From Niastella vici (GTDB taxonomy: Bacteria; Bacteroidota; Bacteroidia; Chitinophagales; Chitinophagaceae), in contig NZ_LVYD01000044.1 in assembly GCF_002077945.1 (NCBI RefSeq), forward strand, positions 1-64,000: a stretch of 64,000 bases of DNA, read 5' to 3'. Each line of letters begins with the position of its first letter. Positions within the stretch are counted from its first letter, which is position 1. Below are positions 1,884 through 21,137 of the stretch, in pieces. The notes beneath the pieces were generated by a model that worked only from the letters and a program-made list of their open reading frames with translations, did not search any database and had not been told where the DNA came from. The translations under genes and the position numbers were made by a program.

Positions 1884-1901
1884 ATTCTAATTTTTTTTGG
1901 G

Positions 1902-5120: not shown

Positions 5121-5274
5121 AACGTTTTTTTAATTGTTTTGAACAATCAATTCCGGATTGTTCCTTACGAAAGTGTTACAGTTTCTCGTGTAGCAGTTTG
5201 CTGTTTGATAGTAGATACAGTTTTTACATGTATTGTTGATTTTAAAGGTTACTAATGAATGGTTGCTTAACAGA

Positions 5275-7242
5275 TCAATGATCGGTTCGGAAAGGTGAGG
5301 CCGGCAGGCCTTCCTTGTTATATAGATTCGGATTATCGGGATTGTCGGCCCAGGCATAACGCACATACAGTGGTGAAGCAATGGCTTCATTCCACACCTT
5401 TACTTTGTTGCCTTCGATTGTTGCTTTGGCCCACACAAATTTTTTATCGGCGCCTGCAATGGCAAACTCGCCCGGCGCTTCGCCATCGTTGGTGATCAGT
5501 CCGCCGCCGGTATTGGTGAATGATACTACTATTGTATCTCCGGTTACTTTGGCGCTTTCAAACAGTGGGCCGCTGGCTACGAGCATTGTTTCGCCATACG
5601 CTATTTTTTGTGCCAGCAATGCCAGGCGGTCGCCAACTTCTTTTTTATGGTCGGGATGAATGTCGTTCCACTCGCCCAGGTCAATGGTTACGGCCATACC
5701 GGTATTGCGCACCTTCAAGGCGTGCAACTGCGCTTCGCGGGTAGCGGCCCACTGGCTTTCGGCAGGCAGGTACTGTACATCGCTGAAATTGGGCAGTTGC
5801 ACATACAGAAAAGGAAGTTCGCCTTCGCCCCATTTACTGCGCCAGTCTTTGATGAGTGCCGGTATCAGTTTCCCATATTCGGCTGGGTTGCCTGTATTGC
5901 TTTCGCCCTGGTACCACAATATTCCTTTTATGGTATACTTCGTTTCGGGGGCCAGCATGGCGTTGTACAATGCGGAAGGGCTGTTTTGCGCCGAAAAACC
6001 ACTAAACCTGTTCATTTGTGCAGGAACAGCTACTTCGCCCACCTTGTACCACCAGGTGCCTTTAAGATCTATGGTGTCGTTCCCGGTGGTAATGCAATAA
6101 GGTTTATCGGGCACAAAGCCGCCCTTTCCTCCATTATTGGTAATACGCACCACCAGCAGGTTCTTCCCCGGCTTCAGGGCGCCTGCGGGCAACACATATC
6201 TTCGCTGGGGGTACATATAAGTGGTATTCCCCACCTGTTTTCCGTTCAGGTATACCACATCGGCATCTACAATGCGGCCCAGTACCAGCCTGGCGGGCAT
6301 GCCGGTCATGGAAGCAGGGATCTCCACTTCCTTCCGGTACCACACGGCGCCATCGAGGTCCCGAACGCCCTGGTCTTCCCAGTAGCCGGGTACTGTTATC
6401 GGGCGCCAGTGTGTGGGCACATAGGTGGTATCGTACCATTGGGGAATAGCTGAAAATCCTTTATCTACCGGTTTTGAATAACTATTTGCGCTGGCGCCGC
6501 CATGCCGGTTAAAACTGCTGGTATAGGAACTGTCTTTGTTCTTTTGAATGGTGGCCGTAATGTTGGGAAAGGCTGCCAGCCCTTCTTCGCTCGTCCATGC
6601 CTGTATGGGTGAACCACCTACCGAGGCATTGATGAGGCCGATGGGAACATGGTATTTATCATAGATGGCTTTGGCAAAAAAATATGCGACGGCAGAAAAA
6701 TCCCGTACATCCTGCGGGTTGGCGCTCTTCCACGAACCTGCCGGCAGGTCATCGTGGGGTTGTTGCAGATCGGTCATGGTAGGGATCCAGAAGTGACGGA
6801 TCTGCGGGTTATTGGCGCTGGCAATTTCAGCTGCATACCGTTCGCTGTGCAATGCCATTTGGTGCACCATATTACTTTGCCCCGAACAGATCCAGACATC
6901 GCCCACCAGCACATCGTTCAGCCTGAGATGATTGCTGGCATCGATATCCATAGTGTACGGCCCTCCGGCTTTCATGGGCGGCAGCCATACCTGCCATTTG
7001 CCGTCGGCCGATGCTTTCGTTTTGTAAGTTTTGCCATTGAAGCGGATGCTCACCTTTTCACCGGGCGCCGACCAGCCCCAGCAGCGCACCCGGGCATCGC
7101 GTTGCAATACCATGCTGTCGCGGATCACGCGGGGTAAACGAACCTGGGCAGGAACGTCTATATAAACAAAAAAGGTAACAACGGCATATAATGCATATTT
7201 CGCCAGCAGCCTGGCGGGCAGGTATCGTTTTTCTCGTTTCAT
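5275..7242 (-). CDS. Secreted SGNH carbohydrate acetylesterase (sialate O-acetylesterase-like, possible CE20-type)
   Basis: Predicted to remove acetyl groups from polysaccharide side chains. The 655-residue product has an N-terminal signal anchor or peptide (about 12-33), a beta-sandwich (about 34-110) and the SGNH block I motif 'SGQSNM' with candidate nucleophile Ser123. A GH2-like sugar-binding beta-sandwich is inserted at about 265-390. A 'WYQGESN' block follows, and 'DIHPDHKKEVGDRLA' near residue 535 supplies the candidate catalytic Asp/His. An SGNH hydrolase with an inserted jelly-roll is the layout described for CE20 xyloglucan acetylesterases, and the neighbours are xyloglucanases, so acetylated xyloglucan is the favoured substrate (inference). 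It could equally be a general sialate/9-O-acetylesterase homologue. It is transcribed with or ahead of susC-susD, divergently from the HTCS gene. Confidence 0.85.
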   Translation of the reverse strand: MKREKRYLPARLLAKYALYAVVTFFVYIDVPAQVRLPRVIRDSMVLQRDARVRCWGWSAPGEKVSIRFNGKTYKTKASADGKWQVWLPPMKAGGPYTMDIDASNHLRLNDVLVGDVWICSGQSNMVHQMALHSERYAAEIASANNPQIRHFWIPTMTDLQQPHDDLPAGSWKSANPQDVRDFSAVAYFFAKAIYDKYHVPIGLINASVGGSPIQAWTSEEGLAAFPNITATIQKNKDSSYTSSFNRHGGASANSYSKPVDKGFSAIPQWYDTTYVPTHWRPITVPGYWEDQGVRDLDGAVWYRKEVEIPASMTGMPARLVLGRIVDADVVYLNGKQVGNTTYMYPQRRYVLPAGALKPGKNLLVVRITNNGGKGGFVPDKPYCITTGNDTIDLKGTWWYKVGEVAVPAQMNRFSGFSAQNSPSALYNAMLAPETKYTIKGILWYQGESNTGNPAEYGKLIPALIKDWRSKWGEGELPFLYVQLPNFSDVQYLPAESQWAATREAQLHALKVRNTGMAVTIDLGEWNDIHPDHKKEVGDRLALLAQKIAYGETMLVASGPLFESAKVTGDTIVVSFTNTGGGLITNDGEAPGEFAIAGADKKFVWAKATIEGNKVKVWNEAIASPLYVRYAWADNPDNPNLYNKEGLPASPFRTDH

Positions 7243-7331
7243 TTGGCAAAGCAGGCTGTAGTGGAACGCTACAACCCTCTCGTTTTTTCAGAATAAAAGT
7301 ACCTGACTGCTTTTACTCACTAAGCGTACTT

Positions 7332-7358
7332 TGTTGCAAACAATAGCAATAATGTTCA
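7332..7358 (-). promoter_or_regulatory. Candidate HTCS operator facing the esterase-susC-susD genes
   Basis: Read on the minus strand, the site runs TGAACATTATTGCTATTG followed by TTTGCAACA. It resembles the sites upstream of the two GH74 genes, with AACAT repeated as AACA 21 bp later and a shared TTGC(C/T)AT core. It points toward the esterase gene, as the GH74 sites point toward theirs. It forms an inverted repeat with the next site (7344-7358 against 7396-7410, 14 of 15 positions). Binding by the HTCS is inferred. Confidence 0.4.
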
Positions 7359-7394
7359 AAAGGTGCTTTTTTTAAGGCCTTGAAAACCAGTTAC

Positions 7395-7414
7395 CTGAAC
7401 ATTTTTGCTATAAT
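7395..7414 (+). promoter_or_regulatory. Candidate HTCS operator facing the HTCS gene
   Basis: CTGAACATTTTTGCTATAAT resembles the first half of the GH74 upstream sites (CTGCAACATTTTTTGCCAT) with one base fewer. It is the inverted partner of the site at 7332-7358, across a spacer of 37 bp. The second repeat unit is poorly kept. Autoregulation of the HTCS gene would be the expected role. Confidence 0.35.
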
Positions 7415-7452
7415 TCAATAAATTTCTTCCATACCGGTGCCCGGAGCTTTAT

Positions 7453-7460
7453 TATCTTTG
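7453..7460 (+). promoter_or_regulatory. Possible -7 promoter element for the HTCS gene
   Basis: TATCTTTG matches the Bacteroidota -7 consensus TAnnTTTG and lies 104 bp before the HTCS start codon. No convincing -33 partner was found, so support is weak. The rest of 7243-7564 holds only the two candidate operators. Confidence 0.35.
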
Positions 7461-7564
7461 GCGCCTTTATTTACCCGCTTAAAAGTTGTACCTTAAGATC
7501 ATTGCGGAAAAGGTGACTGAGAGCACCTCCGGATAAATAAAGGCTGTTTTATTTCAAACGGGGA

Positions 7565-10500
7565 ATGATGGCATTGGGTAGCACCAGGTTTCGGCCACTT
7601 ATAATATTGTGTATATGTATTGCTTGCAGAACGCCCTATTCAATGGCGCAATCTGATCCCATTTATTTTACCTCCCTTACTTCCAGGAACGGACTATCAT
7701 CAAATATCGTCAACGCCATTTTAAAAGATCGCTATGGATTGATCTGGATCGCCACCGAAGATGGGTTGAACCGCTTCGACGGCAACCGCTTTACCGTGTA
7801 CCGGCATCACGATGACGATACCAACAGTTTACCCGGCAACGACATTACCTGTATTCATGAAGATAAGGCAGGCCGCTTGTGGGTGGGCGCCAACGGCGGA
7901 TTTTTAAGCCTGTACGACCGTACAAGAGATGCGTTTATAAAAGTGAGTAGTTTCAAAGGCGGCGATACCCTGTCGGCCATTACTGTCAGATACATCTCCA
8001 GCGATCATACTGGCATGGTATGGGCGGGCTCGTACAACGGGTTGTACTATATTGACCCCGCAGCCAAAAAGATACTGGCGTTGCCGGCAGCGCTGGAACA
8101 AACGCACCAGTTCAATGGCCCCCTTGTGACCAGTATTTTTGAAGATAGTAAAAACCAGATATGGTTTGGCACAACCCGCAACCTTGTTTTGTATGACCCG
8201 GAGAAAAAACAGGTATACAATTATGCCCATGATGATGCCGACCCTGCCAGTCTGTGCGATAACAACATTAAAGTGATCACCGAAGACAAAAAAGGCCGGA
8301 TCTGGATCGGTACTAATAATGGATTGAGCCTGGCTTTACCCAACGGACATTTTAAAAATTTCCTGCACCGGGATAATGATTCCCGGTCGCTCAGCAACAA
8401 TCTTATTTATGCCATTGAACCCGATGCCAACGGACAGCTTTGGGTGGGCACCGAAGAAGGGCTGAATATCCTGGATAGCACCAACGAAAATTTTACGCGA
8501 ATTTTGCCCAATAAATGGAATACATACAGTCTTGCCCGTAAATCGGTGCGCACCATTTACATTGACCCGCAGGGCATTTACTGGCTGGGCACTTACCAGG
8601 GCGGCATCAGCAAATACGACAGGAACCTGAACCTTTTTCAACTAAAGCAAAGCAATGCGTTTGATGATAACGGACTCAGCTCGCCCGTGGTCACCTCTTT
8701 TGCCGAAGGAAAGAACGGGGCGGTGTACATAGGTACCGATGGGGGCGGAGTGAACCTGTTCAACCCGAAAACCGGTTTGTTCTCGCATGTACCACTCGCC
8801 TGCAATACCAAAACGCCTTCCGGTTCCCTGCCTGTTCTTGCCTTGCATATGGACCGGGAAGGTCTTTTATGGATCGGCACCTATTCGAATGGGTTATTAA
8901 GCTATGCCCCTTCTGCTGGAAATTGCCGGTTGTTCAAACAGGGACCGGGCTCTATCAACAACAATGATATTTTTTGCATTACTGAGGATCATAACGGTAA
9001 TTTATGGATCGGCACCAATGGCAGCGGCGTCAACCTCTACGATCGCAAAACCGGCGTTTTTCATGTATACAACAACCGCCGCGATGGTAGTAGATATATT
9101 CCGATTAACGGGTACATCAGGGCCATTACAGAAGACAGGAATGGTAATATATGGATCGCATCGCATGGGACCGGTATTGTGATGCTAAACCCCGTGACCA
9201 ATAAAACACGGCTGTTTGACAAGATCAATAGCAATTTGCCGGTAAATACCGTGCTTACCCTTTTATGCGATGGCCGCAATAATATCTGGGTAGGCACCGC
9301 CGGAGGTGGACTGAGCCTGTTGAACAAAAAAGACAGCACTTTCACTTCCTATTCAGAGAAAGAAGGATTGCAAAACGCCAATGTATACAAGATCCTTGAA
9401 GACGAAAGCGGGCAGATCTGGGTGAGCACCAATGCAGGCATCAGCCAGTTCGACCCCGGCAGCAGCCATTTTACCAATTATACGCGCTATAACGGCGTTC
9501 AGAACAACAACTTTGTGCTGGGCTCAGGAGTAAGATCGCAAAGCGGCGAGTTGTACTTTGGCGGACTGGATGGTTTCAATTACTTCAATCCGCGCAGCTT
9601 TGTAAAGAACAGGAACGTACCTGCTGTAATGCTTACTGATCTGCGGGTAGCCAACCAGTCGGTAGTTCCCTCGGCCAATGGCCCGCTCAGGGAACAGATC
9701 TCCATTGCCCGCGAGATCAGTCTGGATTACAAACAAAATTTTTCGCTGAGTTACGGCGCCATCGATTATACATCGCCCGAACAAAATAATTACTCGTACA
9801 AGCTGGAAGGATTTGATAAGGACTGGAACTATGTAGGGCATGGCAAAACGGCTTCCTATACCAATATCGACCCCGGTGATTATGTATTTCATGTGCGGGT
9901 ACGCAACAGCGATGGTGTATGGAATAACAAGGGCGCTTCAATTGTGATACACATTACACCACCTTTCTGGCGCACGAAATATGCGTATTTTTTCTATGTG
10001 GTATTCTTTATCGGCGTGTTCCTGTTTTACCGGTACAAGACTTTGCAGAAATTGCGGAGGAAGTTCGAGGCCGAGCAGGAAAAGCGGCGGGTAGAACAGT
10101 TGATGGAACAGCAGAAAAAAGAAGTGGAAGTAGCCCGCGAGCTCGACCAGTTGAAAATAAAATTCCTTACCAATTTAAGTCATGAGTTCCGCACGCCCAT
10201 ATCGCTTATCATGGGTCCGGTAGATAACCTGCTGAACCATATTCACGATAAGGGACCGTTGGGCCAGCTGCAAATGATCAGGCGCAATGCCCGTCGGCTG
10301 TTAAACCTGGTAAACCAGTTGCTCGATTTCAGGAAAATGGAGGAGAATGAGCTCACGTTGCATGCTTCGGAAGGTGAGGTGATCGGCTTTATGAAAGAAG
10401 TGTTTGATTCGTTCATTGATTTGTCGGAAAGAAAACGCATCCATTATACATTCAACAGTGATATTAAGACGCTGTTCACCCATTTTGACCATGACAAACT

Positions 10501-11710
10501 GGAGCGCATCCTGTTCAATTTGTTGTCAAATGCCTTCAAGTTCACGCCTGTTAATGGCTCCATAAGTATGGAGGTAAAGCGGGCTGAAGCCACCTCCGAT
10601 GCGGCTAACACCTGGCTCGGCATCCGGGTATCGGATACGGGGATTGGTATTCCCGATGAACAGCGGCAAAAGATCTTCGAGCGCTTTTTCCAGATCAATT
10701 CCACCTCAATATTGAACCAGGGAAGCGGTATTGGCTTATCGATCACCAATGAGTTTGTAAAGATGCAGGGCGGAACGATCGATGTGAACAGCACGCCCGG
10801 AACGGGCACTGAATTCGTAGTACAGTTGCCTTTCTGCAATGCCCGGGCGCAAGAGCCCATCGCCACGCCTGCCGCTATTGAAAAGGAACCGGTTGTTGAA
10901 GAACCGGCGCCGCTCAATGGCACGAACGGGCATGGTGGCGACATCACGCTGCCCGCTATTTTGCTGGTAGAAGATGATGACGATTTCAGGTTTTACCTGA
11001 AGGATAATCTGAAGCACTATTATACCGTGATAGAAGCCGCTAACGGCAAGGAAGGCTGGCAGAAAGCACTCGCGAACCATCCACTGTTGGTGGTGAGCGA
11101 TATCAATATGCCGATGATGGATGGCATACAACTCATCAATAAAATAAAGCACGACAAACGCACCAGTCATATTCCCGTGATATTGCTCACGGCGCTTACG
11201 GGGGAAGAAGAGCAGTTAAAAGGCCTGGCCACAGGGGCGAACGATTACATGACCAAGCCCTTTAATTTCCAGATATTGAACTCGAAGATCAGGAACCTGC
11301 TGGTGCTGAACCATTCGCTCAAGACCACGTACAGCAAACAGATCCAGGTGAACGTACCACAGCGCGAGATGGAGTCGCCCGATGCGGTGCTGATGAAAGA
11401 GATACGGTTGTACATTGAAGAACATCTTATCGATCCGCGGTTATCGGTTGATCATTTAAGCAAGCACCTGAACATGAGCCGCAGCTCGCTGTACAGCAAA
11501 ATGCTGCACCTTACCGGTCAAACCCCCATTGAATACATCCGTGCAATAAAGCTCGACAAAGCGGCCATTTTACTGGAAAAAAACAATTTCAATATAGCCC
11601 AGGTCGCCTATGCTGCCGGGTTTGCCACGCCCAATTATTTCGCCAGAGCGTTCAAAGCGAAGTTTAACATGTCGCCGTCGGACTATGCGAATAAGAAGAG
11701 GAAGGGGTAG
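7565..11710 (+). CDS. Hybrid two-component system sensor/regulator (HTCS)
   Basis: One-protein signal system that senses an oligosaccharide in the periplasm and activates polysaccharide genes. The 1381-residue product has a signal peptide (to about residue 28), two seven-bladed Reg_prop propellers with recurrent 'IWIGT/LWVGT' blade motifs (about 30-690), a Y_Y_Y domain (about 725-795) and one membrane helix near 806-826. The cytoplasmic part has a coiled linker, a HisKA domain with phospho-acceptor His873 in 'NLSHEFRTPISLI', a HATPase domain ('DTGIGIPDEQ', 'GSGIGLSI'), a receiver domain with Asp1179 in 'VVSDINMPMMDG', and a C-terminal AraC-type HTH (about 1285-1381). All domains look complete. 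It is divergent from the esterase-susC-susD group and upstream of GH44/GH74, all of which are probable targets through the repeated motif described elsewhere in this table. Confidence 0.95.
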   Translation: MMALGSTRFRPLIILCICIACRTPYSMAQSDPIYFTSLTSRNGLSSNIVNAILKDRYGLIWIATEDGLNRFDGNRFTVYRHHDDDTNSLPGNDITCIHEDKAGRLWVGANGGFLSLYDRTRDAFIKVSSFKGGDTLSAITVRYISSDHTGMVWAGSYNGLYYIDPAAKKILALPAALEQTHQFNGPLVTSIFEDSKNQIWFGTTRNLVLYDPEKKQVYNYAHDDADPASLCDNNIKVITEDKKGRIWIGTNNGLSLALPNGHFKNFLHRDNDSRSLSNNLIYAIEPDANGQLWVGTEEGLNILDSTNENFTRILPNKWNTYSLARKSVRTIYIDPQGIYWLGTYQGGISKYDRNLNLFQLKQSNAFDDNGLSSPVVTSFAEGKNGAVYIGTDGGGVNLFNPKTGLFSHVPLACNTKTPSGSLPVLALHMDREGLLWIGTYSNGLLSYAPSAGNCRLFKQGPGSINNNDIFCITEDHNGNLWIGTNGSGVNLYDRKTGVFHVYNNRRDGSRYIPINGYIRAITEDRNGNIWIASHGTGIVMLNPVTNKTRLFDKINSNLPVNTVLTLLCDGRNNIWVGTAGGGLSLLNKKDSTFTSYSEKEGLQNANVYKILEDESGQIWVSTNAGISQFDPGSSHFTNYTRYNGVQNNNFVLGSGVRSQSGELYFGGLDGFNYFNPRSFVKNRNVPAVMLTDLRVANQSVVPSANGPLREQISIAREISLDYKQNFSLSYGAIDYTSPEQNNYSYKLEGFDKDWNYVGHGKTASYTNIDPGDYVFHVRVRNSDGVWNNKGASIVIHITPPFWRTKYAYFFYVVFFIGVFLFYRYKTLQKLRRKFEAEQEKRRVEQLMEQQKKEVEVARELDQLKIKFLTNLSHEFRTPISLIMGPVDNLLNHIHDKGPLGQLQMIRRNARRLLNLVNQLLDFRKMEENELTLHASEGEVIGFMKEVFDSFIDLSERKRIHYTFNSDIKTLFTHFDHDKLERILFNLLSNAFKFTPVNGSISMEVKRAEATSDAANTWLGIRVSDTGIGIPDEQRQKIFERFFQINSTSILNQGSGIGLSITNEFVKMQGGTIDVNSTPGTGTEFVVQLPFCNARAQEPIATPAAIEKEPVVEEPAPLNGTNGHGGDITLPAILLVEDDDDFRFYLKDNLKHYYTVIEAANGKEGWQKALANHPLLVVSDINMPMMDGIQLINKIKHDKRTSHIPVILLTALTGEEEQLKGLATGANDYMTKPFNFQILNSKIRNLLVLNHSLKTTYSKQIQVNVPQREMESPDAVLMKEIRLYIEEHLIDPRLSVDHLSKHLNMSRSSLYSKMLHLTGQTPIEYIRAIKLDKAAILLEKNNFNIAQVAYAAGFATPNYFARAFKAKFNMSPSDYANKKRKG

Positions 11711-11781
11711 GGGCTACTGACTTAGCGGGCGACCGAAGCTATTTCAAACTTAGCTTCACAATCAGATCCGTTTTGTTTTCT

Positions 11782-12070
11782 TTATTGGCGATTACCAAAA
11801 CTGGTATTAAACAAACTAAAACCGTCGTGATGTCTTGAAGTTACCACCATGTACCTGCATCCAGCCTGCTTTGCAATAGCTACCCAATTTTTCCCCCGGG
11901 AATTTTGAAACAGTGAAAGAGTCTTTTAGTTTTCCATATTCACTCGTGTCCATCCTTTTGTAGAACATAGCCCATTCGCCCTGGCCTAAAACGGAGTACA
12001 ATCCAAAGTGAATGAACAATCCAAACTTGGAATCTTTCTACCATTGCATGTCATTTTCCGAAAGCAACAG
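11782..12070 (-). pseudogene. Decayed GH29 alpha-L-fucosidase, N-terminal remnant
   Basis: Minus-strand translation gives 'SENDMQW', an in-frame TAG at 12038-12040, then 'KDSKFGLFIHFGLYSVLGQ' and 'GEWAMFYKRMD', the N-terminal hallmark of GH29 fucosidases. Near 11853-11856 the frame shifts by one base: one frame ends 'YCKAGWMQ' and the next continues 'YMVVTSRHHDGFSLFNTSF', the GH29 block containing HHDGF. A TAA at 11782-11784 stops that frame. The remnant therefore has a nonsense codon, a frameshift and total loss of the catalytic C-terminal part; about 95 of some 450 residues remain. It shares its upstream region with GH44. It suggests the locus once trimmed fucose from its substrate itself. 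Confidence 0.85.
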
Positions 12071-12130
12071 TGAGGAATCTACTACTACCTGGGTGTGCCC
12101 ATTCGACCGCTGGAATGCCCCCATGCGCAT

Positions 12131-12164
12131 CAAATGTTGCTTTAAATGGTAATAAATGTTGCAG
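12131..12164 (-). promoter_or_regulatory. Direct-repeat operator (22-bp period) beside GH29 remnant and GH44
   Basis: On the minus strand this 34-bp site starts CTGCAACATTTATTACCAT and ends GCAACATTTG. It matches the site before the first GH74 gene at 27 of 34 positions by eye, and its two GCAACATTT units are also 22 bp apart. Its orientation fits the GH29 remnant, which lies immediately downstream on that strand. The GH44 start codon is 80 bp away on the other side, so the site may have served both genes. Confidence 0.6.
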
Positions 12165-12244
12165 TGACCTTTGCCTGCCCCACCTGGATGTTATTTGGCA
12201 CTTTACTTGTGTCTGCTACACTTTTATAATCCTCTTACCATACT

Positions 12245-14401
12245 ATGAAACAATTCTCCTTAACAAGTTTGTTGCTTTGCCTGTATATCGCACTCAATGC
12301 TCAGAATGTGCAGGTTAGCGTGAAGATCTTCAATAACAGAAAAGCGGTTTCTCCGTATATCTATGGCCGAAACAATTCTATTACAGACTTTGTAGGAAAT
12401 CCTGTTTCAGCAAGTAACTGGCAGCTGTATAAAGATGCAGGTCTTAATTTCTTCCGGGAAAATGGCGGCAACAACCTTACCAAACACAATTGGAGGCTAA
12501 ATATCAGCAGTCACCCCGACTGGTATAATAATGTATATACTTCCAATTGGGATTATGCCGCACAAACCCTTCTTCAGAATATTCCAGCTGCCCAGGGTAT
12601 GTGGGGGTTTCAACTGGTTGGCAAGGCTGCCAGCACAAATGCCAACAATTTCAATGATTGGGCCTATAATAATTCACAATGGTGGTCGGGCGTAAATCAA
12701 AACCTTGCAGGAGGCGGTGTTATCAATACCGCGGGCGGCAGCCAGGCCCTGGTGAATGGAGATCCCAGCCTGTACCTGCAGAACTGGAACGAAGATTCTA
12801 CCACTGGTATCCTGAACCATTGGTTTGGCAATGGTGGTTTGGGCCTTGATTCTACAAAGATCAGGTACTGGAATATGGATAATGAACCGGAAATTTGGTC
12901 GGGCACGCACGACGATATAATGCCCGTACAACCCAGTGCAGAAGCATTCATGCAATCTTATTTTGCAGTAGCCAAAAAAGCAAGGGCGCTTTTCCCCGGC
13001 ATCAAGTTAACAGGACCGGTAAGCCCGAATGAATGGCAATGGTTTAACTGGGGCGCTGCACCGGTTACCGGCTCCGACGGCAAACGGTATCCCTGGCTGC
13101 AGTATTTTATTAAACGGGTGGCCGAAGAAGAACAAAGCACGGGCATCAGGTTGTTAGATGTTATCGATCTTCATTTCTATCCTTCAAGCACCTCACCTTC
13201 GGATGTAGTTCAATATCACCGGGTGTTTTTTGACAGTACGTATATTTACCCTGAGGCCAACGGCGTACATGTGGTGAATGGCGGATGGGATAACACCATA
13301 CAGATAGAAAATGTTTTTGGCAGATGCCAGAAATGGCTGAACCAATATATGGGACCTAATAACGGTGTCACTTTTGCGGTATCTGAAACCGCTACGCAGC
13401 TTCAAAATAATCCAAATGCCGTAGCCGTTTGGTATGCGTCCATGTTGGGCGAGTTCATGAACCATGGTGTAGAATACTTCACTCCCTGGAATTGGGAAAC
13501 AGGCATGTGGGAAACCCTGCACCTGTTTAGCCGGTATAACAAAACTAACAGTGTGAAGGCTACTTCCAGCGATGAAACGAATGTATCTGCCTATACAACC
13601 GTTAATAACAATAATGATTCAGTAACAATAGCACTGGTGAACAGATCTCAAAGCCTGTCAAAGACAGTTGTCATAAACTTTTCCGATTTCCTTGCTGCAA
13701 ACCAGGCAGCAAAAACATTAACGCTTAGTAACCTGCCGGTTGGCACAGAAACCTTTTTATCGCATAGCAGCAATGCCCTGCAAACTGCAACCATTTCGCC
13801 GCAAAACAATACGTTGCAGGTTACACTGGCGCCCATGTCAATTACTTCTGTGATAGTTACTGGCGCTGCAGCTATACTTCCTCAAAACCTGCTCTCTTTC
13901 ACCGCATCGAAGGGCGATAATAAAGTGATTTTGAATTTTACAACCACCAACCAATTGAACCTTGCTTCATTTGATGTGGAAAGAAGCGCCGATGGTTCGT
14001 CCTTTACTACAATTGGTACGGTAACAGGTGAAGGCGCCAATGGCCAGTATGCGTTCATTGATGCACAACCGCTGCCATCCATAAATTATTACAGGCTTAA
14101 ACTGATTGACCATACCGGTGGTTATTCGTATAGCAAAATTTTACCGGTGCGCTACGATAAAAATGCTGCTATTACCGTTTTCCCCAACCCGGCTAAAGAG
14201 GTGCTAACTGTTCAGTTGCATTTGCCGGCTGGTGCCATATCGCTTCAGATAATTGACGGAATGGGACGCATGATGAAAACGATGTTGTTGCAATCATCGG
14301 GTAGCACTTTATCAACAACAATAGATCTCAGTGGGCTTGCTGCAGGGCAGTATTATATTCATGCAGGCAGTGAGATCATAAGTTTTGTAATACAAAAATA
14401 A
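12245..14401 (+). CDS. GH44 endo-beta-1,4-glucanase/xyloglucanase, type IX secreted
   Basis: Predicted to cut beta-1,4-glucan backbones internally, with xyloglucan as the likely substrate. The 718-residue product has a signal peptide (to about residue 19, ending LNAQ) and a GH44 TIM barrel to about residue 425. The family motif 'WNMDNEPEIWSGTH' gives the acid/base Glu214, and 'FAVSETATQLQ' gives the candidate nucleophile Glu381. A beta-sandwich linked to the barrel (about 430-545) is followed by a fibronectin-like segment (about 550-635) and a type IX secretion C-terminal domain ('ITVFPNPAKEVLTVQL', 640-718). The start is the ATG directly before a typical signal sequence. A 22-bp-period operator motif lies 80 bp upstream. 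Both catalytic residues are present, so the enzyme should be active. Confidence 0.9.
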   Translation: MKQFSLTSLLLCLYIALNAQNVQVSVKIFNNRKAVSPYIYGRNNSITDFVGNPVSASNWQLYKDAGLNFFRENGGNNLTKHNWRLNISSHPDWYNNVYTSNWDYAAQTLLQNIPAAQGMWGFQLVGKAASTNANNFNDWAYNNSQWWSGVNQNLAGGGVINTAGGSQALVNGDPSLYLQNWNEDSTTGILNHWFGNGGLGLDSTKIRYWNMDNEPEIWSGTHDDIMPVQPSAEAFMQSYFAVAKKARALFPGIKLTGPVSPNEWQWFNWGAAPVTGSDGKRYPWLQYFIKRVAEEEQSTGIRLLDVIDLHFYPSSTSPSDVVQYHRVFFDSTYIYPEANGVHVVNGGWDNTIQIENVFGRCQKWLNQYMGPNNGVTFAVSETATQLQNNPNAVAVWYASMLGEFMNHGVEYFTPWNWETGMWETLHLFSRYNKTNSVKATSSDETNVSAYTTVNNNNDSVTIALVNRSQSLSKTVVINFSDFLAANQAAKTLTLSNLPVGTETFLSHSSNALQTATISPQNNTLQVTLAPMSITSVIVTGAAAILPQNLLSFTASKGDNKVILNFTTTNQLNLASFDVERSADGSSFTTIGTVTGEGANGQYAFIDAQPLPSINYYRLKLIDHTGGYSYSKILPVRYDKNAAITVFPNPAKEVLTVQLHLPAGAISLQIIDGMGRMMKTMLLQSSGSTLSTTIDLSGLAAGQYYIHAGSEIISFVIQK

Positions 14402-14422
14402 GAAAGGCTGGAATGATCAGGT

Positions 14423-14456
14423 CTGCAACATTTTTTGCCATGATCTGCAACATTTG
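14423..14456 (+). promoter_or_regulatory. Direct-repeat operator (22-bp period) upstream of first GH74
   Basis: Two copies of TCTGCAACAT begin at 14422 and 14444, exactly 22 bp apart, two turns of the helix. That geometry suits a dimeric AraC-type HTH such as the HTCS output domain. The site ends 64 bp before the start codon. A degenerate -7 element, TAGATTTA, lies at 14483-14490. The same arrangement recurs before the second GH74 gene. Confidence 0.6.
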
Positions 14457-14520
14457 AGGCCCTGTTTCAAAAAGCATCAGGGTAGATTTACAGCATTCAA
14501 TAAACTTAAAGATTGCTTTT

Positions 14521-17500
14521 ATGAAAAAACTTCTATTACCGCCAGCCCTGGCGGGTGTTTTCCTATGTAAAGTATGCTCACATTCCAGGCAAAAGATATT
14601 TGCCGTGGCTTTTTCGCTGATTCTTTTTTGCTTTTCACAAACAAAACTAAGTGCGCAAACCTATGGGAATGTAGCCTTTGGAGGAGGTGGTTTTATAACA
14701 GGGATCATAGGTCATAAAACATCAGGCGATGTTTACTGTCGCACAGATGTTGGAGGCGCTTACCGTTGGGATGCCGCCAATTCAAAATGGATTCCTTTGC
14801 TCGATTGGAATTCTGAGGATGAAACAACCTACCAGGGAGTGGAAGCGCTGGCGCTGGATCCTCAGAACGCAAATAATCTATATTTATTTGCCGGGACTGA
14901 TTACTTTAATAGTGGAAAAACAGCAATTTTAAAATCCACAGATAAGGGAAATACATTTACTATAATAGATGTAACTTCAAAATTTAAGACTCACGGAAAT
15001 GCTTTGGGAAGGGGTAATGGCGAACGTCTGGCTGTGGATCCTAATAACGGCAACGTCCTTTTTTGTGGAACAAGAGCCAACGGATTATGGAAGAGTACAG
15101 ATGCCGGCCTTACCTGGAACCTGGCCTGGAATGGAGTAACAACTACAACTAATGGGAACGGGATCTGCTTTGTATTGTTTGATCCTTCCAGTGTTTCGGG
15201 AGGAGTTACCCAAACTATCTATATAGGAGTTTCCCGCACGGGAGCCGGTAACATATACAAAAGTACGGACGGTGGCAGCACTTTCACTGCAATTCAGCCT
15301 GATAATTCATTTATGCCCCACAGGGCTGTTTTATCTTCCGATAATTCTACTTTATATGTATCCATGGCGAATAGTGAAGGTCCATCGAACGGTACCAGCG
15401 GAAGAGTTTACAAATTGGCTACTGCTACCGGAACCTGGACCAACATTACTCCCAATGGGAATAATTTCCCTTATGGAGGAGTGAGTGTTGATCCGGCAAA
15501 TAAAAACAGGGTTATTGTTTCGACGGTTAACGTCTGGAGTAACAACCAGTTTGGCGACACATGGGCGGATTTTATTTACTTATCTACCGACGGAGGAAGT
15601 ACCTGGACCTCAAAGTTGACGCCCACAAGCACCCTGAACACGAATGGCATTGGCTGGATCGCTCCCTATGGGATACATTGGGCAGATTGCATTGACTTTG
15701 ATCCGTCAAATACGGCAAAAGTAAGGGTTATGTCGGGGAATGGACTTTTTACCTGCGATGATGTCAATGCATCCACCACCTCCTGGAAATTTGATGTAAA
15801 AGGACTGGAAGAAACGGTACCCCTTGACGCTATAAGCATTTCCGGTGGTCCTCTAATTATAGGAGTAGGAGACCAACACGGAGCGGTGTATTCTGATATT
15901 TATGCCTATCCGGCTCAGATAATTAACCCCTCTCCCAATGCAATCAGTGGCGTAGCCTATGCCGCGAACAACACGAGTAAAGTGGTAATGGTTACAGATA
16001 ATAAAATAAATTACTCTACCGATCAGGGAGCAACCTTTCCAACATCGGCTACTGTAAATGGTACCTATGGGAAAGTCGCATTGTCGGCAGATGGAAATAC
16101 AACGCTTCATTGTCCCGGCGGCTCAAGTACCACGTATTATTCAACAAATAATGGCACAACATGGACAAGCACAGGAGTTACTAATGTGCAGGATGCTTGT
16201 CCAATAGCAGACTACGTTAATACCAATAAATTCTACATTTATAATCCTGGTACAGGGCAACTTTTAGTCAGTACCAATAAAGGTGTAAGTTTTACCGCTT
16301 CATCATCCAATCCCGGTTCAGGTGGTTCAATTCGGGCAAGGGCCGTTCCCGGTAACGAAGGACATGTATGGGTAGCGCTGCCGAATGGATTAACATATAC
16401 TACAAATAATGGAACTTCATGGACAACTGTTGCCAATGTTACTTATTGCAAAGCTGTTGGATTTGGTAAAGCTGCAACGGGCGCTACTTATCCCGCTATC
16501 TATATTTGGGGAACTGTTAGCGGAGTTAAAGGGATGTTCCGTTCTACAGACCAGGGCGCTTCCTGGACACGAATAAATGACGATGCCCATGAGTGGGGAG
16601 GTGTGGGGAACGGTAATTTTGTAATGGGCGATATGAACGTATATGGCCGGGCATATATGGGTACAGTAGGACGAGGTCTGGTTGTTATCGAATCAGGAGG
16701 TTGTACGCCTACTGCCATCACCCCGTACGTACAGCTTAATGGCGGAAGCTGGCAGCAGACAGCCAGTGGTACTTTAGCTTCAGGTGGCAGCGTGCTGTTC
16801 GGCCCTCAGCCGGTAACGGGCGGATCGTGGAGCTGGACCGGTCCGAATAATTTTAGTGCTACTACACGTGAAGCAGGCATTTCAAATATCCAGGTGAGCC
16901 AGGCAGGAAATTACGTGGCCACCTATACCAATAGCAGCGGATGCCAAAGCACGCAGACCTTTAACCTCACCGTTACGGGCTCAATACTTAGAGAATACTG
17001 GACAGGGATCAGCGGAACTGCTATCAGCAACCTCACCTCCAATGCCAATTATCCAAACAATCCTACGGGTAGCGGGCAGCTCACCAGTCTGGAGGGACCC
17101 ACAAACTGGGCCGATAACTACGGCGCCAGGATCCGTGGATATATCCATCCTACAGCAACAGGAAGCTACACCTTCTGGGTGGCCGGAGACGACAACACGG
17201 AGTTATACCTGAGCACCAGCGCTGACCCGGCCAATGCATCAAGGATAGCTTACGTGAGTGGATGGACGAATTCCAGGGAATGGACTAAGTACAGCACCCA
17301 ACAGTCTGCTACCATTAACCTGGTGGCCGGTCAGAAATACTACGTTGAAGTGCTACACAAAGAAGGTAGTGGTGGAGATAATGTAGCAGTGGCCTGGCAG
17401 GGTCCCGGCATTACACAACAGGTGATCGCCGGAAACTATCTCTCTCCGTTCATTCCCGGTTCTTCAGGCGCCAGAATAGCATCGCAGGTGAACATAATTA

Positions 17501-17742
17501 ATGAGGATGCTGTTAGCCTGTATCCGAACCCGGCCAGTGGCGGACGGTTTACGATCCTTCTTCCGGAAGCTACTGAAAATGCGGTCGTAAGTATTTATGA
17601 TAACCAGGGCAGAATGGTTTACAAAAAGAATGCTCAGGGCGGTAACAGGATACAGATCAATTCGCGGCTCAGCACAGGGCTTTACATCGTTAAAATAAAT
17701 TCGAAAGCACGTAGTTTCACTAGGAAGCTCATCGTTAAATAA
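14521..17742 (+). CDS. GH74 xyloglucanase with Ig-like, PA14 and type IX sorting domains (first copy)
   Basis: Predicted xyloglucan-specific glucanase acting outside the cell. The 1073-residue product has a long N-region and signal peptide ending KLSAQ near residue 45, then the two seven-bladed propellers of GH74 (about 47-735). The first conserved catalytic Asp is Asp76 in 'CRTDVGGAYRWD'. The second aligns with Asp451 in 'GVGDQHGAVYSD'; the usual GDxxGFxH surroundings are altered there, so activity or cleavage mode may differ from the second copy. An Ig-like domain (about 740-820), a PA14 domain (about 822-980; 'REYWTGISGTAIS', 'FWVAGDDNTELYLS') and a type IX tail ('VSLYPNPASGGRF') follow. 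A strong terminator follows the gene and a full copy of its promoter precedes the next. Confidence 0.92.
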   Translation: MKKLLLPPALAGVFLCKVCSHSRQKIFAVAFSLILFCFSQTKLSAQTYGNVAFGGGGFITGIIGHKTSGDVYCRTDVGGAYRWDAANSKWIPLLDWNSEDETTYQGVEALALDPQNANNLYLFAGTDYFNSGKTAILKSTDKGNTFTIIDVTSKFKTHGNALGRGNGERLAVDPNNGNVLFCGTRANGLWKSTDAGLTWNLAWNGVTTTTNGNGICFVLFDPSSVSGGVTQTIYIGVSRTGAGNIYKSTDGGSTFTAIQPDNSFMPHRAVLSSDNSTLYVSMANSEGPSNGTSGRVYKLATATGTWTNITPNGNNFPYGGVSVDPANKNRVIVSTVNVWSNNQFGDTWADFIYLSTDGGSTWTSKLTPTSTLNTNGIGWIAPYGIHWADCIDFDPSNTAKVRVMSGNGLFTCDDVNASTTSWKFDVKGLEETVPLDAISISGGPLIIGVGDQHGAVYSDIYAYPAQIINPSPNAISGVAYAANNTSKVVMVTDNKINYSTDQGATFPTSATVNGTYGKVALSADGNTTLHCPGGSSTTYYSTNNGTTWTSTGVTNVQDACPIADYVNTNKFYIYNPGTGQLLVSTNKGVSFTASSSNPGSGGSIRARAVPGNEGHVWVALPNGLTYTTNNGTSWTTVANVTYCKAVGFGKAATGATYPAIYIWGTVSGVKGMFRSTDQGASWTRINDDAHEWGGVGNGNFVMGDMNVYGRAYMGTVGRGLVVIESGGCTPTAITPYVQLNGGSWQQTASGTLASGGSVLFGPQPVTGGSWSWTGPNNFSATTREAGISNIQVSQAGNYVATYTNSSGCQSTQTFNLTVTGSILREYWTGISGTAISNLTSNANYPNNPTGSGQLTSLEGPTNWADNYGARIRGYIHPTATGSYTFWVAGDDNTELYLSTSADPANASRIAYVSGWTNSREWTKYSTQQSATINLVAGQKYYVEVLHKEGSGGDNVAVAWQGPGITQQVIAGNYLSPFIPGSSGARIASQVNIINEDAVSLYPNPASGGRFTILLPEATENAVVSIYDNQGRMVYKKNAQGGNRIQINSRLSTGLYIVKINSKARSFTRKLIVK

Positions 17743-17762
17743 CAAATTTTCTCACAATTATA

Positions 17763-17795
17763 GGGAATGCTTCGCCGGAAGCATTCCCTTTTTTT
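17763..17795 (+). terminator. Rho-independent terminator after first GH74
   Basis: Perfect 11-bp stem GGGAATGCTTC/GAAGCATTCCC with a GCCG loop, followed by seven T residues. It sits 21 bp after the stop codon and ends transcription before the second GH74 promoter. Confidence 0.9.
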
Positions 17796-17809
17796 ATGGC
17801 CGTTCGGAT

Positions 17810-17843
17810 CTGCAACATATTTTGCCATGATCTGCAACATTTG
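17810..17843 (+). promoter_or_regulatory. Direct-repeat operator (22-bp period) upstream of second GH74
   Basis: Nearly the same sequence as the site before the first GH74 gene: TCTGCAACAT at 17809 and again at 17831, 22 bp apart, with TTTTGCCATGA between. Similarity continues through TAGATTTACAGCATTC to the start codon, so the whole promoter was duplicated with the gene. Confidence 0.6.
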
Positions 17844-17909
17844 AGGCCCATGTTTCAAAGATCATGAGGGTAGATTTACAGCATTCTATTACCAGAAAGA
17901 TTGCTTTTT

Positions 17910-20900
17910 ATGAAAAAACATTTACTACCGCCGACCTCGCAGGTCAGGCAAAAAACACTTGCTTTTCTATGTTTATTTACCGTATTTAATTTGTTTTCCG
18001 GCTATGAAGGGAGGGCCCAAAGCTCCGGCTATGTCTTGAAGAATGCACCTATTGGCGGTGGCGGATTTGTAACCGGCATCGTTACCCACAAAACATCGGG
18101 CGACAGGTATTGCCGCACGGATGTGGGCGGCGCTTACCGCTGGGATGCCACGAACAATAAATGGGTGCAGTTGCTCGACTGGCTTGGCGATTCACAAGGT
18201 GACCTTTATGGCGTTGAGGCCCTGGCGCTTGATCCGCAGAATGCCAATAATGTTTATCTGCTCTGCGGAACCAATTATAATGGCAATGGAAAGTCGGCTA
18301 TATTAAAGTCAACCGATAAAGGAAATACTTTTACTTATACCGACCTTACCAATACGTTTAAAGTGCATGGAAATGGAAATGGGCGCGGTAACGGTGAACG
18401 ATTGGCAGTTGACCCCAAAAATAGTAATATATTATTCTGTGGCACAAGGGCGAACGGCTTGTGGAAGAGTACAGATGCCGGCGTAACCTGGAGCCAGACC
18501 TGGAGCGGTGTAACTACCACAACCAACGGCAACGGTATTTGTTTCGTGCTTTTTGACCCTTCAGGCAGCGTAGTGAATGGAGCCAGTCAAACCATTTACA
18601 TCGGTGTTTCCCGCACCGGGGGGGCGACTATCTACAAGAGTACAAACGGGGGCGCCAGCTTTACCGATATTTCCCCGACCACCAGTTTTATGCCGCACCG
18701 GGCTGCCCTGCAGGGAACTACCATGTATGTTACCTATTCAGACAATGAAGGTCCGCAATCAACTAACGGCGATGGAAAGGTATATAAGCTTAACACTGCT
18801 ACCGGTGTGTGGACAAACGTTACCCCTGCTAGTTGGAAGGACCATGCATACGGTGGCGTAAGTATAGACCCAACTAATGTAAACCGCGTAATAGTTTCTT
18901 CCTGTGGCAGTTATACTAACAACCAGTTTGGTACCGGCTGGGGCGACTACGTTTTCCTCACTACCGATGGCGGAGCTACCTGGACGCTTAAAAACGGCAC
19001 CAATGCCACCTATGATGCTAACGGCATGGGCTGGTCTTGCTGTGGCGCAGTTAACTGGATGGATTGTATCGAGTTTGACCAGGCCAATGTAAACCGCGTG
19101 CGGGTTGTAGGCGGAGGCGGCGTATATACCTGTCCTGATATTACCGCCACGAATACCAGCTGGAAATATGATGTGGTCGGCATTGAAGAAACCGCCTTGC
19201 TCGACGTAACAAGCGTTCCCGGCGGTTCGGTTATTACCTCTTTCGGCGACGTAACAGGCTTTGTGCATGAGCCGTTGACTTCTATTCCGCAGGTAAAATT
19301 GTCTCCTACAGACGGGAATAATCAGAGCATTGCTTATGCGGCCGGCAACACAAACAGGGTGGTAAGAGCTTCTAACGGGGGAAGCGTTATTTACTATTCC
19401 AACGATAAGGGCGCTACATGGACGGGAGCCTCTTCCAATATGGGTACTGACGGAAAGGTTTCCATCAGTGCTGATGGAGGCACCATCCTGCACTGCCCCG
19501 GAAGTTCTACTACAACCTACTATACCACCAACAACGGAGCAAGCTGGACGGCCTGTTCGGGTGTATCCGTACAATACGCTGCTCCGGTGGCTGACCAGGT
19601 AAATGCAAATTATTTCTACATATTCTCGCCGAGAACCGGGGAGTTATTCAGAAGTACCAATAAGGGAGTCAGTTTCTCAGTAGCAGGCACGCCGGGCGCA
19701 TCAAACGCGAATTATCCATGGGAACCAGACCAGATAAGGACAGTGCCGGGGTTTGAAGGGCATGTGTGGGTGCCGCTTTTCGGCAATGGATTAAAGTATA
19801 CAACCAACGCCGGAGTATCTTTTACAACTGTTTCCAATGTTACTTATTGCAAAGCGCTGGGGGTAGGAAAAGCGATGCCCGGGGCCAGCTATCCTACTGT
19901 TTTCATTTGGGGAACAGTGTCAGGCGTAACAGGCCTTTTCAGATCAACAGATCAGGGTGCTACCTGGCTCAGGTTAAATGATGACGCCCATCAGTTCGCT
20001 GGCGCCCCATTGCTCGTAGGTGACATGAACGTTGCCGGAAGGGTATTTATGAGTGCCGGTGGCGGAAGAGGTTTAGTTTACTGGGAGCCTGCTACCTGTA
20101 CACCTTCTACCATTACACCGTATGTACAGCTTAATGGCGGAAGCTGGCAGCAGACAGCCACTGCCACTGTAAATACAGGTGGCAGCGTGTTGTTTGGCCC
20201 TCAGCCCGTCACAGGAGGTTCCTGGAGCTGGAGTGGTCCGAATAATTTCAGTGCTGCTACCCGTGAAGCAGGCATTTCAAATATCCAGGTAACCCAGGCC
20301 GGAAATTACGTGGCCACGTATACCAATAGTGGCGGATGCCAAAGCACACAGACCTTTAACCTTACGGTTACCGGCTCCATACTGAGGGAATACTGGACGG
20401 GGATCAGCGGAACTGCTATCAGCAACCTCACCTCGAATGCCAATTATCCAAACAATCCTACGGGTAGCGGGCAGCTCACCAGCCTGGAGGGCCCCACAAA
20501 CTGGGCCGATAACTATGGCACCAGGATCCGTGGATATATCCATCCTACAGCAACCGGAAGCTACACCTTCTGGGTAGCGGGAGACGACAACACGGAATTA
20601 TACCTGAGCACCAGCGAAAACCCGGCTAACGCATCAAGGATAGCTTACGTGAGTGGATGGACGAATTCGAGAGAATGGAATAAGTACAGTACACAGCAAT
20701 CCACTACTATTAACCTCACTGCCGGGCAGAAATACTACATCGAAGTGCTTCAGAAAGAAGGTGCTGGCGGCGACAATGTAGCGGTAGCCTGGCAGGGGCC
20801 CGGCATTACACAACAGGTGATCGCCGGAAATTATCTCTCGCCGTTTGTTCCGGGTTCTTCGGGTGGCAGAATAGCAACGCAAGTGAACATAATTAATGAG

Positions 20901-21137
20901 GATGCTATTAGCTTATATCCTAACCCGGCCAATGGCGGACGGTTTACGGTCCTTCTTCCGGAAGCTTCCGAAAATGCGGTCATAAGTATTTATGATAACC
21001 AGGGCAGAATGGTTTACAAAAAGAATGCGCTGGGCGGTAACAGAATACAGATCAATTCGCGGCTTAAGGCAGGGCTCTACCTTGTGAAGATAAATTCGAA
21101 AGCAGGTAGTTTCACCAGGAAGCTCATCGTTAATTGA
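17910..21137 (+). CDS. GH74 xyloglucanase with Ig-like, PA14 and type IX sorting domains (second copy)
   Basis: Predicted xyloglucan-specific glucanase. The start is the ATG at 17910 (MKKHLLPP), matching the first copy; an in-frame TTG lies three codons upstream. The 1075-residue product has a signal region to about residue 38 and a GH74 double propeller (about 45-735) with catalytic Asp71 in 'CRTDVGGAYRWD' and Asp447 in 'SFGDVTGFVHEP', close to the family consensus. Ig-like, PA14 and type IX tail modules follow and are almost identical to those of the first copy over about 1 kb. The catalytic propellers differ clearly more, which points to old duplication with later homogenisation of the C-terminal modules. 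It has its own promoter and terminator, so the two copies are separate transcripts. Confidence 0.94.
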   Translation: MKKHLLPPTSQVRQKTLAFLCLFTVFNLFSGYEGRAQSSGYVLKNAPIGGGGFVTGIVTHKTSGDRYCRTDVGGAYRWDATNNKWVQLLDWLGDSQGDLYGVEALALDPQNANNVYLLCGTNYNGNGKSAILKSTDKGNTFTYTDLTNTFKVHGNGNGRGNGERLAVDPKNSNILFCGTRANGLWKSTDAGVTWSQTWSGVTTTTNGNGICFVLFDPSGSVVNGASQTIYIGVSRTGGATIYKSTNGGASFTDISPTTSFMPHRAALQGTTMYVTYSDNEGPQSTNGDGKVYKLNTATGVWTNVTPASWKDHAYGGVSIDPTNVNRVIVSSCGSYTNNQFGTGWGDYVFLTTDGGATWTLKNGTNATYDANGMGWSCCGAVNWMDCIEFDQANVNRVRVVGGGGVYTCPDITATNTSWKYDVVGIEETALLDVTSVPGGSVITSFGDVTGFVHEPLTSIPQVKLSPTDGNNQSIAYAAGNTNRVVRASNGGSVIYYSNDKGATWTGASSNMGTDGKVSISADGGTILHCPGSSTTTYYTTNNGASWTACSGVSVQYAAPVADQVNANYFYIFSPRTGELFRSTNKGVSFSVAGTPGASNANYPWEPDQIRTVPGFEGHVWVPLFGNGLKYTTNAGVSFTTVSNVTYCKALGVGKAMPGASYPTVFIWGTVSGVTGLFRSTDQGATWLRLNDDAHQFAGAPLLVGDMNVAGRVFMSAGGGRGLVYWEPATCTPSTITPYVQLNGGSWQQTATATVNTGGSVLFGPQPVTGGSWSWSGPNNFSAATREAGISNIQVTQAGNYVATYTNSGGCQSTQTFNLTVTGSILREYWTGISGTAISNLTSNANYPNNPTGSGQLTSLEGPTNWADNYGTRIRGYIHPTATGSYTFWVAGDDNTELYLSTSENPANASRIAYVSGWTNSREWNKYSTQQSTTINLTAGQKYYIEVLQKEGAGGDNVAVAWQGPGITQQVIAGNYLSPFVPGSSGGRIATQVNIINEDAISLYPNPANGGRFTVLLPEASENAVISIYDNQGRMVYKKNALGGNRIQINSRLKAGLYLVKINSKAGSFTRKLIVN

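Follow-up and report, generated by a model that had tools for sequence, protein, structure and literature searches.

A direct-repeat operator upstream of glycan-degradation genes in Niastella vici: probable target of a xyloglucan-type HTCS encoded on other contigs

The first 64,000 nucleotides of contig NZ_LVYD01000044.1 of Niastella vici (GCF_002077945.1; hereafter, the window) carry an HTCS gene (7565-11710, + strand; Reg_prop/Y_Y_Y, HisKA, HATPase_c, Response_reg and HTH_18 domains) and, beyond it, glycoside hydrolase genes among which a repeated element occurs three times, at 12131-12164 (- strand), 14423-14456 (+ strand) and 17810-17843 (+ strand). Which regulator reads these elements? 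An earlier note on this DNA took them for HTCS binding sites and assigned them to the adjoining HTCS. As judged from sequence, they very probably serve to bind a sugar sensor that turns on genes for plant cell-wall degradation, and their regulator is probably encoded elsewhere in the genome, not next door.

The coordinates, strands and exact 22-bp unit spacing given by the earlier note were all confirmed for the three sites, as was the match of 27 out of 34 bases between the 12131 and 14423 sites. The agreement is far beyond chance: a 31-nt pattern, composed after the window sites were known, recovered the three sites with at most 3 mismatches and gave no match in 100 shuffles. The 14423 and 17810 sites, identical at 33 of 34 bases, have the consensus TCTGCAACATTTnnTrCCATaATCTGCAACATTT (type A), a direct repeat of GCAACATTT units with period 22. 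In both, the repeat is followed 27-28 nt downstream by a -7-type TAnnTTTA box, giving a composite promoter; the box reads TAGATTTA at 14483-14490 (+ strand, 27 nt after the repeat) and again at 17871-17878 (+ strand, 28 nt after it). A closely similar pattern has 7 matches in the 10.06-Mb genome (reversed control, 0), and in the pattern scan of 294 genomes of the family 10 genomes had matches, 24 in all (none in the control). Relaxed to two GCAACA units 22 bp apart with at most 2 mismatches, the pattern matches the window 13 times against a shuffle mean of 8.6, which is not above chance. Scanning of 564 kb at up to 5 mismatches yielded 34 sites, and none in the reversed sequences; 31 of the 34 possess a -7-type box, invariably at 27 or 28 nt. 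The last base of this TAnnTTT(A/G) box is mostly A, an exact TAnnTTTG being exceptional among the 31 boxed sites, and in the aligned -33 region CCCTGTTTnAAA is visible while TTTG has no fixed place. A conserved leader hairpin (CAGCATTCAAT..GATTGCTGT before the ATG) was not supported in the 28 leaders with the start codon at the usual place (-5.96 kcal/mol versus -5.48, sd 0.32, for permuted pairs; 354 of 5000 permutations were as good as the own arms).

The 14423 site, which has no mismatch to the pattern, lies upstream of the first GH74 gene (14521-17742, + strand). This predicted target encodes a secreted xyloglucanase-like enzyme of 1073 aa with a PA14 domain, a Por secretion tail and structure matches to solved xyloglucanases (6p2l, E 0; 2cn2, a beta-1,4-xyloglucan hydrolase, E 3e-111). 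The 17810 site lies upstream of the second predicted target, also a secreted GH74-like enzyme (17910-21137, + strand; mechanical ORF start 17901). Duplication, offered earlier as a possible origin of the GH74 pair, does not suffice alone, because the two proteins are 67% identical and their 100-nt promoters 90%.

We scanned the whole genome with a model, R1, trained on 24 sites from other genomes. Every own-genome site was excluded from training, as were the boxless sites of relatives (G288 3002173, G288 3005849 and G253 548961), so that the model itself presupposes the -7 box; the box count of 31 in 34 was obtained before the training. In the 10-Mb genome the 17810 site ranks first (66.3 bits, E 1.7e-17) and the 14423 site second (65.8 bits, E 2.4e-17). 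All 16 own-genome matches at E<=1e-5 precede glycan genes, the location expected of an HTCS operator, namely, two GH74, four GH31, a truncated GH31 followed by SusC, GH97, SusC, two GH5, GH43, GH44, GH3, a GH2 fragment before GH3, and an esterase. The earlier note had proposed a regulon, to be refuted by many non-glycan matches in such a scan; since all the strong matches precede glycan genes, both the HTCS-operator and the regulon readings hold. Its view that an AraC-type HTCS operator is built from direct repeats is likewise supported, by the placement of the matches and by the form of the sites, a same-strand repeat with period 22 in all three, where about 21 bp is expected of HTCS operators. 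The composite is also present in 18 of the 293 other genomes of the family. We infer xyloglucan as the signal from gene content, namely, the similarity of GH74 to the solved xyloglucanases and the xyloglucan-binding domain PF18329 in surface proteins of two SusC operons (contigs C61 and C66). Bacteroides ovatus also has a xyloglucan utilization locus.

The motif follows another HTCS, which we call HTCS-XG, with own copies on contigs C89 (22747-26856) and C61 (94017-98129). Like the window HTCS, these combine a Reg_prop/Y_Y_Y sensor, HisKA, HATPase_c, Response_reg and an AraC-type HTH in one chain, and their DNA-binding domains are 40-43% identical to that of the window HTCS. Among the 294 genomes surveyed, a full-length HTCS-XG of at least 54% identity is found in 16 of the 19 that have the motif; of the remaining three, G208 has a partial copy, and G029 and G239 have a relative at 51%. 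Conversely, with the 54% threshold, picked after viewing the list, 16 of the 17 genomes with HTCS-XG have the motif, compared with 3 of the other 277; leaving out the 10 genomes of the first scan, the proportions are 6/7 and 3/277 (Fisher p 8e-10, relatedness not corrected). With the HTCS search loosened to E<=1e-100, 145 of the 294 genomes give a match, so HTCS presence alone at that level says little. A site is located 42-297 nt from the HTCS-XG gene (from the 51% relative in G029 and G239) in 17 of the 18 measurable motif genomes; the distance is 2679 nt in G116, and the fragmented G208 falls outside the count. In another collection, a site follows the HTCS gene at 38-191 nt in all six loci with a full-length HTCS of at least 59% identity, two of which come from training genomes. 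The motif score drops with HTCS divergence (rho 0.84 across n=8 untrained genomes, without G208). Locus L217 (61% over a partial copy) has a weak motif only (E 0.04), none was found at E<=1 in locus L205 (55%), and in genome G227 the motif was undetected while HTCS-XG is present (62%). Conservation of the operator with one HTCS ortholog group thus holds for the C89/C61 lineage, not for the window HTCS. We therefore put at about 0.8 the probability that the 14423 and 17810 sites, and less surely the 12131 site, would be operators of the xyloglucan-type HTCS-XG encoded on other contigs, and that the window HTCS would read a second type of site, type B.

According to the earlier assignment, the window HTCS would itself bind the GCAACATTT repeats and govern GH29, GH44 and GH74. 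No other HTCS on the assembly lies closer to the first GH74 site, which is 2.7 kb away from it, and as the window begins at a contig end, the assembly does not fix how far C61 and C89 lie from the window. HTCSs of its lineage are found near type A sites in G209 (5.7 kb), G253 (10 kb) and G150 (21 kb), and farther away in G180 (28 kb), G085 (32 kb) and G288 (41 kb), which makes this assignment slightly more likely, and the two candidate operator types share an AACATTT core, so that cross-binding is possible. However, the DNA-binding domain of the window HTCS is 38-43% identical to those of the first ten motif-linked HTCSs and 37-48% to those of twelve more HTCS-XG relatives; its recognition helix reads ATPNYFA versus NNPKxF in the motif-linked HTCSs; and its best match is only 51-53% identical in the five motif genomes of the same genus. 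Sixteen loci of its lineage, 20 kb each, contained no type A site, and in G006 a 66% relative stands beside close relatives of the window SusC and SusD and a GH115, without type A sites. Since the motif co-occurs with and adjoins the C61/C89 lineage, and a separate candidate operator can be assigned to the window HTCS, we regard this assignment as unlikely. It is very unlikely that the sites are read by some other AraC-type regulator, for example the 294-aa protein encoded at 26240-27124 in the window: relatives of this protein occur close to the xyloglucan loci of G150, G288, G085, G213 and G214, but 7 of the 19 motif genomes give no match to it at E<=1e-30, and its DNA-binding domain and that of HTCS-XG are 29% identical.

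For the window HTCS a separate operator is likely, of GAACATTT type with a period of 21 bp. One candidate (7397-7425, + strand, 3 mismatches) faces the HTCS gene and is followed after 27 nt by the -7-type box TATCTTTG (7453-7460, + strand); the other (7329-7360, - strand) faces the SASA-SusC-SusD genes and is followed after 27 nt by TACTTTTA (7294-7301, - strand, read from the sequence). These genes encode a SASA-type carbohydrate esterase (5275-7242, - strand, PF03629), a predicted target of the window HTCS, a SusC-like transporter (1902-5120, - strand) and a SusD-like protein (69-1883, - strand), the latter two 76% and 88% identical, respectively, to proteins adjoining the window-HTCS relative in G006. 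The type B repeats surfaced only by comparison with G006, a repeat tool reporting no direct repeats in positions 7200-7600. Because the pattern was derived from G006 and both window sites, it finds the latter by construction; genome-wide it has few sites, and nothing besides those in the window within 2 mismatches. A weak pair noted earlier upstream of susC (GTGTTAC at 5173, AGTTTGC at 5195) is present in its letters and not supported as a site, being absent from the matrix matches at E<=10 in window and genome; on inspection by eye, a -7 box at the proper distance is also missing.

The 12131 site is a weaker type A repeat (20.7 bits, E 0.0028 with R1, repeat part only), inverted relative to the GH44 gene (12245-14401, + strand, PF12891). 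It faces, without a -7 box, what had been taken for a regulated GH29 gene; this is only a broken remnant (11739-12091, - strand): compared with an intact G288 relative, an alpha-L-fucosidase by Pfam, it has lost an internal segment and carries a frameshift. As for its proposed role as the GH44 site, the repeat is real, but it is inverted and the promoter part is absent. That it may be a working GH44 operator in inverted orientation, not a relic of a lost forward promoter, is a tentative reading to which we give somewhat less than even odds. The repeat is kept before GH44 in G288 at 26 of 31 positions compared with 63 of 89 in the downstream flank, and the intact GH29 gene of G288 likewise has an inverted, boxless site with 2 mismatches just upstream; however, the three sites that lack the forward box are exactly the inverted ones at issue (12131 and those in G288), and the GH44 copies on contigs C63 and C66 stand behind forward, boxed sites.

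If HTCS-XG is the regulator, its sensor would detect xyloglucan oligosaccharides, and two AraC-type output domains of the phosphorylated protein would bind next to each other on the same face of the DNA. Each domain would contact one GCAACA box and one CCAT box, separated by about a helical turn. Bound immediately upstream of the -33 region, the protein would recruit RNA polymerase in a class II-like activation, while the window HTCS would read the related but different GAACATTT site and serve its own SASA-SusC-SusD locus. This would provide a base-level, testable regulon with fixed promoter geometry for a xyloglucan HTCS in Chitinophagaceae; it would also mean that glycan genes assigned to the nearest HTCS can be misassigned, and, with two sister operator types next to two HTCS lineages, the way in which AraC-type HTCS output domains choose their DNA can be tested directly. 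A joint reading, whose chances we regard as evenly balanced, is that Chitinophagaceae HTCS regulons use a rigid module (the repeat, TAnnTTTA after 27-28 nt, and a short leader that is conserved), that neighbouring HTCSs use sister codes, and that the window cluster is wired to a xyloglucan HTCS on another contig, the window HTCS being labelled xylan-type. The sister codes, GCAACATTT at 22 bp and GAACATTT at 21 bp, would follow the second recognition helix, so that the regulator of a locus, not necessarily the nearest HTCS, could be read from the DNA.

Operators of this kind are already known. Titles and abstract openings of the papers found, with subscription journals sparsely covered, contain neither the type A motif nor a Chitinophagaceae HTCS operator. 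The predicted HTCS operators of Bacteroides are described as two-site direct repeats with a spacer, at a mean distance of 21 bp, before PUL genes; according to Ravcheev et al. (2013), the motifs of related HTCSs resemble each other, and operons far apart can be served by a single motif (PMC3878776). The sites described here share with them the two-site direct repeat before PUL or glycan genes of AraC-type HTCSs, a likeness in architecture, but differ, as far as those operators are described there, in the period of 22, the Chitinophagaceae host, the xyloglucan-type genes, the -7-type box at a fixed 27-28 nt and a regulator that is probably not the nearest HTCS. The promoter of the Bacteroidota primary sigma factor is given as -7 TAnnTTTG and -33 TTTG (PMC7366714); the sites have TAnnTTT at a constant place in common with it, whereas they mostly end in A and show no evident -33 TTTG, as may be expected of an activator-dependent promoter. 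Finally, xyloglucan utilization loci, as outlined for Flavobacterium johnsoniae, contain an endo-xyloglucanase, exo-acting GHs, SusC/D and surface glycan-binding genes, and GH74 in some cases (PMC11892949); the same four components recur here, but are spread across several contigs, and a common operator links GH74 and GH44 outliers to them.

The three direct repeats of 22-bp period described in the earlier note (type A sites: 12131-12164 on the minus strand, 14423-14456 and 17810-17843 on the plus strand) lie at the coordinates it gave, with units exactly 22 bp apart. A 31-nt pattern matches the window three times (0 across 100 shuffles), the 10.06-Mb Niastella vici genome seven times (reversed pattern, 0) and the 294 Chitinophagaceae genomes 24 times in 10 genomes (controls, 0), namely, 6 of 6 same-genus genomes and 4 of 288 others; as the pattern was composed after the window sites were known, the fair test lies in the four own-genome matches outside the window and in those of the relatives. 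A much looser repeat pattern was not above chance level in the window, and a class-wide scan of 395 genomes with stricter filters returned type A matches only in the own genome and one family member.

Comparison of the flanks of type A sites revealed a second fixed element, a -7-type box TAnnTTT(A/G), which, with offsets of 22-32 permitted, lies exactly 27 or 28 nt past the repeat in 31 of 34 sites. These 34, with at most 5 mismatches, come from 564 kb of fetched DNA; the count describes the sites and says nothing on genome density, since the loci were chosen for holding them. The reversed sequences gave no match at this level and three at 6 mismatches. The box is missing from the window site at 12132 and from two sites of a relative, G288, that lie close to GH44 and GH29. 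TAnnTTTG is described as a Bacteroidota -7 element (PMC7366714); the spacing places the repeat end some 40 bp before the likely transcription start, the position that a class II activator would occupy. The two window GH74 promoters (14402-14521 and 17742-17911) are 90% identical over 100 nt, and the proteins 67% identical. Between -7 box and ATG, type A leaders (e.g. window 14490-14520) carry a short conserved sequence, CAGCATTCAAT..GATTGCTGTATATGAAA, with an imperfect inverted repeat; a permutation test did not support paired structure in these leaders.

The genome scan proposed in the earlier note was carried out with R1, a sequence-only model of repeat plus box trained on 24 sites, all from other genomes. 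All 16 sites at E ≤ 1e-5 precede glycan genes, some named via BLAST to own Pfam-named proteins. The two window GH74 sites rank first and second, and a window GH74 protein closely matches xyloglucanases of solved structure. The others precede GH31 (contigs C89, C61, C58 and C60), GH97 and SusC (C61), GH5 (C124, C89), GH43 (C61), GH44 (C63), GH3 (C89), a GH2 fragment followed by GH3 (C61), an esterase (C59) and, on C66, a truncated GH31 with SusC, SusD, a xyloglucan-binding surface protein, GH5 and GH44 behind it. At this last locus (C66:72000-82789, fetched as L231) only a 73-aa start fragment of GH31 stands between the type A promoter and the SusC-to-GH44 genes; the operator has outlived the gene it first served. 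Weaker matches are C60:112550 (E 0.003; GH74-like locus, by eye), window 12132 (E 0.003), window 33917-33966 on the minus strand (E 0.04; close to 34111-34839, by eye an ECF-sigma-like gene) and C44:300675 (E 0.06; before GH95). A 191-aa gene similar to one near 33917-33966 adjoins the inverted GH29 site in G288. Among 24 boxed sites of relatives, 18 precede SusC (7), GH5 (3), GH31 (3), GH2 (2), GH43, GH97 or GH74 by BLAST; the other six precede three GH3 genes and one carboxylesterase (Pfam), one GH31-like start (by eye) and one 206-aa protein without assignable family.

The 12131 site, previously read as serving GH29 and GH44, holds up at the sequence level (10 Mb scan, E 0.003) but is inverted relative to GH44. 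The GH29 that it faces is only a remnant: 301 nt match an intact alpha-L-fucosidase gene of G288 at 90% identity, and an internal deletion follows. In G288, inverted, box-less sites lie just upstream of both GH44 and the intact GH29, so that the arrangement may reflect either inverted use or a shared relic.

As to the regulator, 19 of the 294 family genomes carry the type A motif at E ≤ 1e-4. The first ten genomes with the motif all have a hybrid two-component regulator (HTCS) 70-77% identical to C89:22747-26856, or that gene itself; the own genome holds two copies of this lineage (HTCS-XG), the other at C61:94017-98129. An HTCS-XG search at E ≤ 1e-100 matches 145 of the 294 genomes, so the identity level matters: the motif occurs in all 14 genomes with the best scores and, at a threshold set post hoc of at least 54% full-length identity, in 16 of 17 genomes, compared with 3 among the other 277. 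These three are G208, whose copy is split over contigs (69% identity over residues 1-881), and G029 and G239, in which a 51% identical relative and the motif are 233 and 177 nt apart. Without the first-scan ten genomes, the table of motif against HTCS-XG reads 6/1/3/274 (p 8e-10, kinship uncorrected). A site lies 42-297 nt from the gene of HTCS-XG or of its 51% relative in 17 of 18 measurable motif genomes (2679 nt in G116). A second collection, genome_contigs, supplied 44 loci of HTCS-XG relatives, of which L188 and L190 come from training genomes and others may overlap the 294; all nine model matches at E < 1e-3 follow the HTCS gene on its own strand, and a site occurs at 6 of 6 loci with at least 59% full-length identity. 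L205 (55%) gave no model match, and L217 (61%, partial copy) one only at E 0.04. Motif score rises with HTCS-XG identity (rho 0.84, n=8).

The earlier note had assigned the repeats to the neighbouring window HTCS (7565-11710), and six other genomes do have HTCSs of its lineage at distances of 5.7-41 kb from type A sites. Against this stand its diverged DNA-binding domain, R1-negative loci and a candidate repeat of its own. The domain shares 38-43% identity with its counterparts in the first ten motif genomes and 37-48% with those of twelve more HTCS-XG relatives, and the second recognition helix differs. R1 found no match in the locus of its closest relative (66% identical, in G006) or in 15 further fetched loci of the lineage. 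Binding of type A repeats by the window HTCS thus appears improbable, and judged from sequence the sites probably belong to the HTCS-XG lineage. The G006 relative adjoins 76% and 88% identical counterparts of the window SusC and SusD plus a GH115 gene, so the substrate may be glucuronoxylan-like.

Comparing intergenic DNA of G006 and the window uncovered the type B repeat, which in G006 reads GAACATTTGTGCTATTATTCAGAACATTT, has a period of 21 without mismatch and is followed at 27 nt by a -7 box. In the window, two copies (7397-7425, plus; 7329-7360, minus) lie between the HTCS and SASA esterase genes, one facing each, both with the box at 27 nt; the 7397 copy, with 3 mismatches, gains its weight solely from conservation and box. 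The repeat is perfect in one G209 locus and has one mismatch in one locus of G150, a same-genus genome, neither showing a -7 box within the offsets scanned. A period-21 scan of the window and 16 loci gave 14 matches at up to 3 mismatches, four of them at 0-2 (reversed control: 3, all with 3 mismatches), and several loci of the lineage had no type B repeat. With a pattern built from these sites, the whole genome yielded no further match within 2 mismatches and five at 3, the control level. This putative operator is a lead resting on few sites.

Other regulators lie nearby. A 294-aa AraC-type protein (window 26240-27124, minus), with relatives near xyloglucan loci of several genomes and in 12 of the 19 motif genomes, is possibly a second regulator of such loci. 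A third HTCS (C61:48766-53007; 1767-6008 of fetched locus L014) lies inside a xyloglucan locus; its DNA-binding domain is distant from HTCS-XG (35-41% identity) and conserved in G253 (92%).

By its architecture, the type A repeat belongs with the operators predicted in 2013 for 16 Bacteroides HTCSs, direct repeats about 21 bp apart (PMC3878776), and is thus of an already known kind; new beyond these are the fixed promoter geometry, the predicted base-level regulon and the probable reassignment to a non-neighbouring HTCS.
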